From: Stappia indica
GTDB lineage: Bacteria; Pseudomonadota; Alphaproteobacteria; Rhizobiales; Stappiaceae
Length of the DNA: 64,000 bases
Assembly: GCF_009789575.1 (NCBI RefSeq)
Contig: NZ_CP046908.1
Span: 3,997,001-4,061,000, forward strand
Direction: 5' to 3'
Shown: positions 26,796-29,364 of the stretch, in pieces
Layout of the letters: each line of letters begins with the position of its first letter
Numbering within the stretch: the stretch's first letter is position 1
The notes under the pieces: generated by a model
The model's input: the letters and a program-made list of their open reading frames with translations, nothing else
What the model was told of the DNA's origin: nothing
The model's database searches: none
Made by a program: the position numbers and the translations under genes

Positions 26796-26890
26796 TCCGG
26801 TCCCGGTCGCTTTTGCGGTTTCCCTCTGCGGCGCGGCGCTTTAGAAGACCTGTGCCAACCCGCTTGTCGGCCATGTTCCGGATCACGCAG

Positions 26891-27976
26891 ATGTCGCACA
26901 ATACCTTCGGTCACCTTTTCCGCGTCACCACCTGGGGCGAAAGCCACGGCCCGGCGCTCGGCTGCGTCGTCGACGGATGCCCGCCGCGGATCGAGCTGAC
27001 CGAGGCGGAAATCCAGGCCTTCCTCGACAAGCGCAAGCCCGGCCAGTCGAAGTACACGACCCAGCGGCGCGAGGCCGATGCGGTGCGCATTCTCTCCGGC
27101 GTGATGAGCGACGACCATGGCGTGCAGCGCACCACCGGGACGCCGATCTCGCTGATGATCGAGAACACGGACCAGCGCTCGAAGGACTATTCCGAGATCC
27201 GCGAGAGCTATCGTCCCGGCCATGCCGATTTCACCTATGACGCCAAATACGGCATCCGCGACTATCGCGGCGGCGGGCGCTCGTCCGCCCGCGAAACGGC
27301 TGCGCGCGTCGCTGCGGGCGCCATTGCCCGGAAGGTGGTCCCCGGTCTTCTCGTGCGCGGCGCGCTGGTTCAGGTCGGGCCGCACAAGGTCGACCGCAGC
27401 CGCTGGGACTGGGACGAGATCGGCAACAACCCCTTCTTCTGCCCCGATGCGACGACGGCCGCGCGCTGGTCCGAATATCTCGACCAGATCCGCAAGGACG
27501 GGTCCTCCGTCGGCGCGGTGGTGGAAGTGGTCGCCGAGGGCGTGCCGGCGGGGCTTGGCGCTCCGCTCTATGGCAAGCTGGACCAGGAGATCGCCGCTGC
27601 GCTGATGTCGATCAACGCGGTGAAGGGGGTGGAGATCGGCAACGGCTTCGACGCCGCAGCCCTGACCGGCGAGGAGAATGCGGACGAGATGCGCATCGGC
27701 GCCGACGGACGTCCCGTCTTCCTGTCCAACAATGCCGGCGGCATTCTCGGCGGTATTTCCTCCGGCGAGCCGGTGGTCGCGCGTTTTGCCGTCAAGCCGA
27801 CCTCGTCGATCCTGACCCCGCGCCGTTCCGTCACCCGCTCCGGCGAGGATGTGGACGTGCGCACCAAGGGGCGGCATGACCCGTGCGTCGGCATTCGCGC
27901 CGTGCCCGTTGGCGAGGCCATGCTGGCCTGCGTGATCGCCGACCACTACCTGCGTCACCGCGGACAGGTCGGCTGA
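26891..27976 (+). CDS. aroC: Chorismate synthase
   Basis: AroC eliminates phosphate from 5-enolpyruvylshikimate 3-phosphate to make chorismate, using reduced FMN. The protein is 361 residues. Family signatures are [19 protein letters not shown] at the N-terminus, [25 protein letters not shown] in parts, and the C-terminal block [10 protein letters not shown] with RGRHDP replaced by [12 protein letters not shown]. The flavin requirement is notable because ribB follows directly. An in-frame ATG at 26873 (MFRITQ) is possible, but MSHNTFG is the usual start. Confidence 0.96.
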
Positions 27977-28022
27977 TTTCAGTATTGCTGAAATCTGTGA
28001 TCATTTTTATTGCTACTGAAAA
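27976..28022. promoter_or_regulatory. Repeat cluster before the HTH-RibB gene (operator candidate)
   Basis: A perfect inverted repeat ATTTCAG-TATTG-CTGAAAT covers 27976-27994, beginning at the last base of the aroC stop. The heptamer TATTGCT followed by TGAAA occurs twice (27983 and 28008), so a third CTGAAAA half-site lies at 28016-28022, about 23 bp before the ATG at 28045. The whole leader is only 68 bp, too short for an FMN riboswitch. Confidence 0.5.
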
Positions 28023-28044
28023 TCCGCTGCGGTAGCATGCTGGC

Positions 28045-29364
28045 ATGCGTCTAGATGCTTGGCTCACCCTCAACAAGGAAACCCGGTCGGCCTTTGCCCG
28101 CCGCGCCGGCCTGTCGCCGGCGGCCGTGACCGCCCTGTGCAACGACCCGGGCGTTTGGGTTTCGCGTGAAAGCGCGGAAAGGATCGCTGCCGCCACAGGC
28201 GGCGAGGTCACTCCGAACGACCTGCTCGGCTTGAAAGGATCTACCAACGTGGACATGTCCCAGACACGTGTCGCGGAGGCGCTGCGCGCCTTCGAACGCG
28301 GCGAAATGCTTGTGGTTACCGATGACGACGACCGGGAGAACGAGGGCGACCTGATCGTCGCGGCCTCGCTCATCACTCCGGAGCAGATGGCCTTCATGGT
28401 TCGCCATACCTCAGGCATCGTCTGCGCTCCCATGACCCGGGACAATGCGCGCCGCCTGCGGCTCGACCCGATGGTCGCCGACAATGACGCGCCGCTGTCG
28501 ACGGCCTTCACCATTTCGGTCGACTATCGCCACGGCCTCACCACCGGCATCTCCGCCGAGGAGCGGTGCTCGACCGTGCGCGGCCTCGCCAATCCGAATG
28601 CAGGGGCGGCGGATTTTGCACGTCCCGGACACATCTTCCCGCTGGTGGCTCGCGAGGGCGGCGTGCTGATGCGCTCCGGCCATACCGAGGCGGCCGTCGA
28701 TCTCTGCCGCCTTGCCGGCCTGCCGGAGGTCGGCGTGATCTCCGAGCTCGTCAACGACGACGGCACGGTCAAGCGCGGCCCCCAGGTGGCCGAATTTGCC
28801 GCCCGTCACAATCTCAAGTCCGTTTCGGTGGCCGATCTCATCGCCTGGCGCCAGCGCATGGAGCGCTTGGTCGAGCGGATTGCCGAACAGCCGATCGAGA
28901 CCATCGCAGGCCCGGCTTATGCGGTCACCTACGCGACGCCCTATGACCCCATGCACCATGTTGCGGTGGTCTTCGGTGACATTCTCGATGGTCGCAACGT
29001 GCCTGTCCGCCTCCAGTTGGAATCGGTTCTCGACGACGTCTTCGGGGATGCGCGGGTGATGGACGACGTGATGCGCAGCTTCGCCGCACGCGGCCGCGGT
29101 ATCGTGGTCTATCTGCGCGAGGGTTCGGTCGGCGTTGCGCGCCAGGCGCGTCGTGCACGGACGGATCTGGCGGCTGCAGAGGCGGAGGAGCACCATTCGG
29201 CTCAGGCGCGTGAGGAGCAGTGGCGGGAAATCGGTCTCGGCGCGCAGATCCTGAAGGATCTGGGTGTCAACTCGATCACCCTGCTTGCGTCCCGCCAGCG
29301 TCGTTATGTCGGCCTTGAAGGCTTCGGCATCGCCATCGAGTCGACCGAGATCCGCGAAGCCTGA
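28045..29364 (+). CDS. ribB: HTH-RibB fusion: DHBP synthase with degenerate RibA domain
   Basis: RibB converts ribulose 5-phosphate to 3,4-dihydroxy-2-butanone 4-phosphate for riboflavin synthesis. Residues about 75-275 are a complete RibB domain: DDDDRENEGDLI, HTSGIVCAPM, DYRHGLTTGIS, RPGHIFPL, RSGHTEAAVDL, GVISELVND. The C-terminal part resembles GTP cyclohydrolase II, but all three zinc cysteines of its S-E-C...C-D-C region are missing (LESVLDDVFGDARVMDDVM), so it should be inactive. Residues 1-65 are extra: ETRSAFARRAGLSPAAVTAL then SRESAERIAAATGG and EVTPNDLL form a Cro/C1-like helix-turn-helix. An internal start near 28249 (GTG with AAAGGA upstream, or ATG 28255) would give a conventional RibB, so two products are conceivable. 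Confidence 0.87.
   Translation: MRLDAWLTLNKETRSAFARRAGLSPAAVTALCNDPGVWVSRESAERIAAATGGEVTPNDLLGLKGSTNVDMSQTRVAEALRAFERGEMLVVTDDDDRENEGDLIVAASLITPEQMAFMVRHTSGIVCAPMTRDNARRLRLDPMVADNDAPLSTAFTISVDYRHGLTTGISAEERCSTVRGLANPNAGAADFARPGHIFPLVAREGGVLMRSGHTEAAVDLCRLAGLPEVGVISELVNDDGTVKRGPQVAEFAARHNLKSVSVADLIAWRQRMERLVERIAEQPIETIAGPAYAVTYATPYDPMHHVAVVFGDILDGRNVPVRLQLESVLDDVFGDARVMDDVMRSFAARGRGIVVYLREGSVGVARQARRARTDLAAAEAEEHHSAQAREEQWREIGLGAQILKDLGVNSITLLASRQRRYVGLEGFGIAIESTEIREA

Follow-up and report, generated by a model that had tools for sequence, protein, structure and literature searches.

In a window of 64,000 nucleotides from Stappia indica (contig NZ_CP046908.1, positions 3,997,001 to 4,061,000; coordinates below are those of the window), the riboflavin gene ribBX encodes an enzyme that carries a helix-turn-helix (HTH) domain at its N-terminus, and a palindrome of the kind that such a domain might bind lies ahead of the gene. 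Because an HTH on the enzyme is combined with a matching DNA site before its gene, self-control is very probable, and we propose that HTH-RibBX very probably controls its own production. Proteins with 97-100% identity likewise point to Stappia as the host. The locus comprises the following features, including a Shine-Dalgarno (SD)-like motif within the coding frame.

26813-27976, plus strand: upstream neighbour, which from its sequence we take to be aroC (its start is placed at the earliest start codon in the open frame)
27975-27995, no strand: O1, perfect inverted repeat GATTTCAG-TATTG-CTGAAATC with 8-nt arms
28005-28021, no strand: O2, imperfect copy TTTTATTGCTACTGAAA differing at 2 of 12 positions and lying partly over the predicted -35 (repeat search, leader alignment)
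28010-28015, plus strand: predicted -35 TTGCTA, followed by a 17-nt spacer; exactly at -35 if the ATG is the transcription start
28033-28038, plus strand: predicted -10 TAGCAT, 6 nt 5′ of the ATG (inferred from column conservation)
28045-29364, plus strand: HTH-ribBX frame, 439 aa (from the list of open reading frames)
28045-28233, plus strand: N-terminal Cro/C1 (YdaS-like) HTH, residues 1-63, recognition helix at about residues 25-33 (profile, AlphaFold, Foldseek, substitution rates)
28234-28251, plus strand: SD-like AAAGGA (28234-28239) and GTG start (28249-28251), with an alternative ATG at 28255 (codon-level conservation)
28276-28848, plus strand: RibB domain, residues 78-268 (Pfam dihydroxybutanone phosphate synthase)
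28873-29340, plus strand: X domain, a degenerate, cysteine-free GTP cyclohydrolase II-like domain, residues 277-432 (PF00925)

The RibB domain is intact, as judged from its Pfam match (PF00926, E 4e-83), a TIGR00506 score of 234.9 bits against a cut-off of 177.45, and RENEGD and GHTE motifs that are invariant across 25 sequences. It is followed by a GTP cyclohydrolase II (GCH II)-like domain (PF00925, 102 bits, E 2.5e-29), and the protein scores 387.5 bits for the bifunctional RibBA equivalog (NCBIfam PRK09311), below the cut-off of 569. The zinc ligands of GCH II are cysteines, and since the cysteines of the 439-aa protein are found at positions 32, 127, 175 and 221 only, its GCH II-like part is without the zinc cysteine. 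This part fits the X domain of RibBX, which the RibBX passages of PMC10012899 describe as having no GCH II activity and as modulating RibB through an unknown mechanism. An earlier, sequence-only reading of this locus had placed an HTH ahead of an intact RibB domain, and that layout stands, with the C-terminal X domain, which it had overlooked, now added.

The X domain is itself the single PF00925 match in the whole genome, so that no ordinary GCH II that might supply the pyrimidine precursor of riboflavin was found by this search.

The fused HTH domain and its palindrome

Searching the N-terminal part by itself places Pfam HTH_26 on residues 7-63 with 22.5 bits, against a cut-off of 22, and the YdaS family PF15943 reaches 17.6 bits of its curated cut-off of 30. 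The AlphaFold model of the domain has five helices in an HTH fold, with a mean predicted local distance difference test score (pLDDT) of 82.8. The first 50 Foldseek matches to this model include the 434 and P22 repressors, SinR and YdaS, at a probability of 1.00 and E values of at least 0.036, and no Foldseek match falls under E 0.001. The enzymes HEPD, MPnS and HppE are also among the structural matches, and a PDB sequence search with the HTH gave spurious matches only (TAL repeats, diaminopimelate decarboxylase).

The full-length protein search covered 61 genomes, our own and 60 relatives, and found the gene in all 61. Its product matches from residue 1 onwards in all 37 Stappiaceae genomes and in 2 of the 24 remaining genomes, which belong to the same order. 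An HTH profile has matches in 96 of the order's 397 genomes, small standalone proteins being among them, and loci were fetched for the longer frames. At 67 HTH loci from outside Stappiaceae, mostly selected for long frames, the HTH leads in frame into RibBX in 59 cases and into CoaBC in seven, and forms a 127-residue protein in one. HTH-RibBX is present in further Hyphomicrobiales families besides Stappiaceae, and two RibBX fusions lie outside the order (f94, with the family search done on one).

The ratio of nonsynonymous to synonymous substitution rates (dN/dS) of the HTH is 0.03-0.14 in nine of ten pairs, the tenth being saturated, and falls where the enzyme's own values do. Constraint is relaxed in the 11-residue linker, which has values of 0.17-1.16 in the eight computable pairs. 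It is strongly supported by these comparisons that the HTH is a conserved protein domain under purifying selection. The locus thus joins an enzyme and a DNA-binding domain in one polypeptide under selection, as in a trigger enzyme, and also has the operator in its own promoter that is typical of one, identified through phylogenetic footprinting only.

The perfect inverted repeat of O1 had already been noticed in the leader, which spans 68 bp (27977-28044) between the end of aroC (27976) and the ATG at 28045. Its core is TTTCAG-N5-CTGAAA (27977-27993); O1 as a whole is centred at about -60 from the ATG and starts at the aroC stop codon. All 37 Stappiaceae leaders contain this pattern within 120 bp, perfectly in 25, with one mismatch in 10 and with two in 2. 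The wider set that we collected holds 112 leaders of the TTTCAG type from seven families, with 9 minus-strand loci and 20 leaders of family f23 omitted and one leader present twice (L079 and L218). The palindrome is perfect in 69, has one mismatch in 31, two in 9 and three or more in 3, so that 100 of the 112 have at most one mismatch and 109 at most two, compared with 0.03% and 0.38% of shuffled leaders. The six arm positions hold 1.2-2.0 bits of information and the three central positions 0.3-0.7 bits; conserved arms around an unconserved spacer middle are the pattern expected of the DNA site of a dimer.

The palindrome was found at two mismatches or fewer in none of the 400-bp regions upstream of 22 HTH-less loci, which represent 21 of the 22 HTH-less genomes (the set does not include G045, whose match is a fragment, or the second copies of G046 and G059). 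It is likewise absent from 11 further HTH-less loci, although 10 of these closely follow aroC; L092 and L110, with no upstream sequence, lay outside the scan. A scan of 20 HTH-less ribBX loci, 1.2-1.6 kb each, gave no Rfam match at gathering score; outside this set, in G041, which has two HTH-less ribBX copies, a flavin mononucleotide (FMN) riboswitch lies about 1.7 kb upstream. Loss of the N-terminal residues or of the repeat in relatives had been named beforehand as evidence that would count against autoregulation. Both turned out to be conserved, the N-terminus in Stappiaceae and in other Hyphomicrobiales families and the repeat ahead of the HTH-bearing orthologues, and the idea of autoregulation is left standing.

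These observations bear on two alternatives. The palindrome might be an RNA element, either the aroC terminator or a leader hairpin, that is unrelated to the HTH; an 8-bp stem is possible and in Stappia the palindrome begins at the aroC stop codon. We rejected a terminator, as a terminator scan finds no terminator-like site, the palindrome is kept in Roseibium, where the adjacent upstream gene is not aroC, and in Pseudovibrio, where aroC is 191 to 1487 bp off, and it is missing from the 10 HTH-less ribBX genes that adjoin aroC. An RNA element in general is highly improbable, because the palindrome also precedes a transporter gene (described below), its arms are nearly fixed around an unconserved loop middle, and O1 would fall outside a leaderless transcript. 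It is also very unlikely that a separate repressor binds the palindrome, with the HTH of RibBX serving a structural or protein-binding role. Other XRE-type proteins do exist in these genomes, with weak similarity, but the palindrome tracks the fused HTH, being present in 37 of 37 Stappiaceae leaders with it and in 0 of 33 loci without it, and differs in a family with a different recognition helix (f23). Beyond RibBX itself, the HTH query turns up four matches at E <= 1 in the genome of the window (G000), and none of the four is better than about E 0.5, so a standalone HTH paralogue as the true binder was set aside, no close one having been found.

At two mismatches or fewer the pattern occurs three times in the window against 0.77 expected, a number reached by 4 of 100 shuffles, and two of the three occurrences are O1 and O2. 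The 5.1 Mb genome has one perfect palindrome, at the ribBX leader, and two one-mismatch places elsewhere (L112, L113), neither ahead of a recognisable gene, the surrounding open reading frames being ambiguous and no family search having been made on them. The 37 Stappiaceae genomes together contain 46 perfect sites, of which 25 are at ribBX, 12 beside an FMN riboswitch and 9 elsewhere, whereas the pattern written backwards occurs 3 times.

Most f23 proteins have (S/T)QGR(V/I)SQ(L/I) as their recognition helix, compared with SPA(S/A)(V/I)TALC in proteins of the TTTCAG type, and the leaders carry a different palindrome, TATTAGC-N3-GCTAATA, mostly starting 24-26 bp 5′ of the ATG. It is found at two mismatches or fewer in 17 of 20 leaders, the consensus having been read from the same leaders. 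As an independent check, exact ATTAGC-N3-GCTAAT occurs seven times in 40 genomes, six of them directly ahead of HTH-ribBX, against two for the backwards pattern. Sequence comparison therefore strongly supports an operator that varies with the recognition helix. Four further RibBX fusions (L285 and L286 of f94, L263 and L264 of f42) have Gln for Ala in the recognition helix (TQL or TQF for TAL) and operator arms that are TTTAAG- or TTTAG-like where others have TTTCAG, hinting that one residue of the helix may read one base pair. A strict residue-base rule is contradicted by L253, L254 and L261, which combine TQL with TTTCAG arms.

We also placed 87 RibB-X sequences, including 10 of about 60 Stappiaceae genes, on a midpoint-rooted tree (L095 was skipped for its in-frame stop). 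Ten HTH-less rows, mostly from Phyllobacteriaceae and Rhizobiaceae, nest at two places among an HTH-bearing grade, which favours loss of the HTH in the HTH-less lineages; a single origin of HTH-RibBX is not proven. Two other records came up among the ribBX loci. A contig filed under Nostoc favosum (L104) has an aroC-ribBX pair resembling those of Hyphomicrobiales, perhaps through assembly contamination, and the ribBX match G059:C1670:206438-207550 is an open frame with one TAG.

Predicted promoter layout, internal start and proposed autorepression

For the promoter columns we used the 77 of the 112 leaders in which O1 starts at -71 to -67. Counted from the A of the ATG, positions -35, -34 and -33 are T, T and G in 99, 70 and 70% of these leaders, and T at -12 and A at -11 are found in 69 and 71%. 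The corresponding layout in the window is TTGCTA-17-TAGCAT-6-ATG, and if this is the promoter, transcription would start at or near the ATG, so that the ribBX mRNA is probably leaderless. The O2 position, over the predicted -35, is occupied at three mismatches or fewer in 39 of the 77 leaders compared with 0.8% of shuffles. As the sequence-only reading had it, no FMN riboswitch (RF00050) lies in front of the gene: it was found neither in the leader or window nor in the whole genome, and no Rfam model matches the window at its gathering score.

The frame also has a second candidate start at the HTH/enzyme boundary. Both codons that had been suggested for an enzyme-only product are present, the GTG at 28249, in the arrangement AAAGGA-N9-GTG, and the ATG at 28255. 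Across 130 genes (one of 131 was lost, being without the anchor motif), we scored this boundary for an in-frame ATG, GTG or TTG with an SD-like motif 4-10 nt ahead of it. Such a start is found in 105 of the 130 genes, compared with 89 of 2605 control windows (3.4%) and with 46.6 +/- 3.7 genes, 57 at most, after shuffling of synonymous codons. By group, it is present in 60 of 61 Stappiaceae genes, 10 of 20 in f23, 9 of 14 in f28, 4 of 7 in f42, and 0 of 1 in each of f35 and f36. The HTH-less orthologues align from about this point. The conservation at the codon level supports either a second, enzyme-only product or a kept route of HTH loss.

Taken to its extreme, this conservation could mean that the internal start alone is used and that the HTH frame is a decayed or untranslated extension. 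We regard this as extremely improbable, given the low dN/dS of the HTH, its in-frame conservation across families, and promoter columns that sit as they would for a leaderless ATG at 28045.

In relatives, the palindrome has a second candidate target. In 14 Stappiaceae genomes an FMN riboswitch is linked to a gene whose product is an EamA transporter, judged from PF00892 matches in three searched examples. The palindrome lies beside the riboswitch at one mismatch or fewer in every one of the 14, perfectly in 12; that of G025 was missed by the 150-bp scan because it straddles the edge of the aptamer. Two HTH-less genomes with the EamA gene and the riboswitch are without the palindrome. In L133 (G001) and L115 (G019), from HTH-bearing Stappiaceae, the FMN riboswitch stands ahead of a ribH-type gene, for lumazine synthase, and has no palindrome. 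By analogy, the transporter may be RibN-like, RibN being, according to the relevant passages of PMC4418817, an alpha-proteobacterial importer of riboflavin that has an FMN riboswitch. The genome of the window has no EamA transporter match at E <= 1e-30.

Taken together, these results favour a model in which HTH-RibBX is both an enzyme and the repressor of its own gene, acting through O1 and O2, a leaderless promoter and a second start, and we put the probability of this model at roughly three in four. RibB is a dimer. Under our model, the RibB domain would make dihydroxybutanone phosphate and dimerise, thereby pairing two N-terminal Cro-like HTH domains, and the paired domains would bind the TTTCAG-N5-CTGAAA of O1 and, at a higher protein level, also the weaker O2 over the -35. 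RNA polymerase would then be shut out of the leaderless promoter, and repression of the gene would therefore scale with the amount of enzyme present. Tuning may come from ribulose-5-phosphate in the RibB site, or from a nucleotide or flavin on the X domain. In relatives HTH-RibBX would also control the RibN-like transporter gene, and the SD-led internal start would yield RibBX without the HTH, so that a non-repressing enzyme would be available. The proposal of the sequence-only reading that the enzyme regulates its own gene is strongly supported by these comparisons; we infer binding, dimerisation, repression rather than activation, the ligand and use of the second start. Overall that reading is partly supported; besides the X domain, it did not include the probable leaderless promoter, the second target gene of relatives or the HTH fusions to other enzymes.

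The main rival is activation, because O1 lies at about -60 and is the sole site at some transporter genes. HTH-RibBX at O1 would then activate its own and the transporter promoter, and O2 would switch the gene off when the protein is abundant, much as lambda CI does at PRM. O1 is the better of the two sites and starts at -71 to -67 in 77 of the 109 sited leaders, and the site at the Pannonibacter and Pseudovibrio transporter genes is 68-75 bp ahead of the riboswitch (91 in G028). In 27 of the 109 leaders, however, the best site is at -42 to -38, over the -35 where the leaderless layout holds (which is not the case in Pseudovibrio), the f23 palindrome is mostly close to the ATG, as in several CoaBC fusions, and in three Roseibium transporter genes the palindrome abuts the aptamer. 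Sites over the -35, near the ATG or against an aptamer look like repressor positions. We therefore consider activation unlikely, if a serious contender, and autorepression by a dimer the most likely mode.

Several observations weigh against the autorepression model. A position of about -60 is that of class I activator binding, and the Pannonibacter and Pseudovibrio transporter leaders have no second site at two mismatches or fewer, so that activation is possible there. Some leaders have a weak O2 or none, 25 of the 77 showing five or more mismatches there. A sigma-70 consensus scan finds no promoter, TTGCTA and TAGCAT together making 8 of 12 consensus matches, and the Pseudovibrio leader has a different layout that looks SD-led. 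In a search with the whole protein HTH_26 scores 18.7 bits, under the Pfam cut-off of 22, and the full-length model (pLDDT 66) is too poor for dimer geometry to be read from it. Finally, the genomes are related, so the counts of leaders and genomes are not independent.

Known enzyme-regulators and further HTH fusions

Enzyme-regulator proteins and RibBX are both already known kinds. The trigger enzymes PutA, BirA and NadR are active metabolic enzymes that double as regulators of their own pathways; they belong to other pathways and use other DNA-binding folds, whereas here the domain is Cro/YdaS-like, Stappia has just one perfect site, at the gene itself, and a second start may give an HTH-free enzyme. 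The archaeal bifunctional riboflavin kinase/regulator RbkR, in which a flavin enzyme is joined to a DNA-binding domain controlling flavin genes, is alike in joining a flavin-pathway enzyme to such a domain, but its enzyme is a riboflavin kinase in place of DHBP (dihydroxybutanone phosphate) synthase and its DNA-binding domain is another one. HEPD, MPnS and HppE are enzymes with a stretch of the same fold as the HTH model, and in the material examined no palindrome or autoregulation is tied to them.

BzdR, as described in the passages of PMC3602430 concerned, likewise has an N-terminal DNA-binding domain fused to an enzyme-derived, shikimate-kinase-like domain and controls benzoate-degradation genes; its enzyme activity is lost, whereas the RibB of HTH-RibBX keeps the conserved residues. 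RibBX itself, for which PMC10012899 cites Brutinel 2013 and Nouwen 2021, shares with our protein the RibB domain and an X domain devoid of GCH II activity, and the RibBX passages of PMC10012899 mention no N-terminal HTH, operator or internal start, all three of which are found here. The FMN riboswitch of ribB and ribN controls the same pathway, according to passages of PMC4418817, but ribBX here has a leader with a predicted protein site in place of RF00050, and the Stappiaceae transporter gene carries both riboswitch and palindrome. In a non-exhaustive search of the open-licence literature we found no HTH-RibBX autoregulator, operator, second target or internal start of this kind.

If the model holds, a riboflavin enzyme acting as its own repressor would be a protein-based alternative to the FMN riboswitch, with a RibN-like transporter as the second flavin gene of the regulon in relatives. 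A single gene might then give two products, and a function would be suggested for an N-terminal extension that could easily be missed. The predicted operators are short and defined to the single base.

HTH domains of a similar kind also head other enzymes. HTH-CoaBC occurs in seven f32 genomes (L268, L271, L273-L276, L279; read from translations, with a family search on one), and in several CoaBC leaders a palindrome, TTACAT-N3-ATGTAA for instance, lies about 24 bp 5′ of the ATG. The other fusions are from Alphaproteobacteria, in single genomes or small groups, with Pfam run on one to three of each and L301, L309 and L311 assigned by sequence likeness. They comprise HTH-MeaB in small (1.4 Mb) genomes (L296, L301, L309), with a palindrome, for example AACTTAACC-N5-GGTTAAGTT, directly before the start, HTH-glutamine synthetase-like proteins (L295, L298, L304, L311), an HTH-2-oxoglutarate dehydrogenase E1 (L287), an HTH-aspartate/ornithine-type carbamoyltransferase (L303) and an HTH-nitrate-reductase-delta/TorD-like protein (L288).

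We scored each upstream inverted repeat by how many of 300 shuffles matched or exceeded its arm. Repeats were not significant for four CoaBC fusions (47, 212, 238, 249), one f94 RibBX (241), the dehydrogenase E1 (74), the carbamoyltransferase (200), two glutamine synthetase-like proteins (53, 241), a 198-aa protein (245) and a 128-aa protein (176). Few shuffles reached the arm for MeaB (12, 0, 0), the TorD-like protein (4), three of the seven CoaBC fusions (3, 10, 2), the other f94 RibBX (1) and a 181-aa protein (2), and also for two of the four glutamine synthetase-like proteins (0 and 7); the repeats of these two, with starts at -99 and -69, may not be operators. Upstream palindromes thus appear clear for MeaB, three of seven CoaBC fusions and the TorD-like protein, and mixed for the glutamine synthetase-like group.

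With somewhat less than even confidence, we suggest that these proteins form a set of self-controlling alphaproteobacterial enzymes (RibBX, CoaBC, MeaB and others), in which an N-terminally fused Cro/YdaS-like HTH of about 60 residues, each with its own palindrome and in RibBX with an internal start, would keep the amount of enzyme steady without a separate regulator or riboswitch. Like domains on enzymes of coenzyme A, propionate, nitrogen and pyrimidine metabolism would, if this is true, amount to a general regulatory design that is easy to test. The HTH itself is reminiscent of phage repressors.

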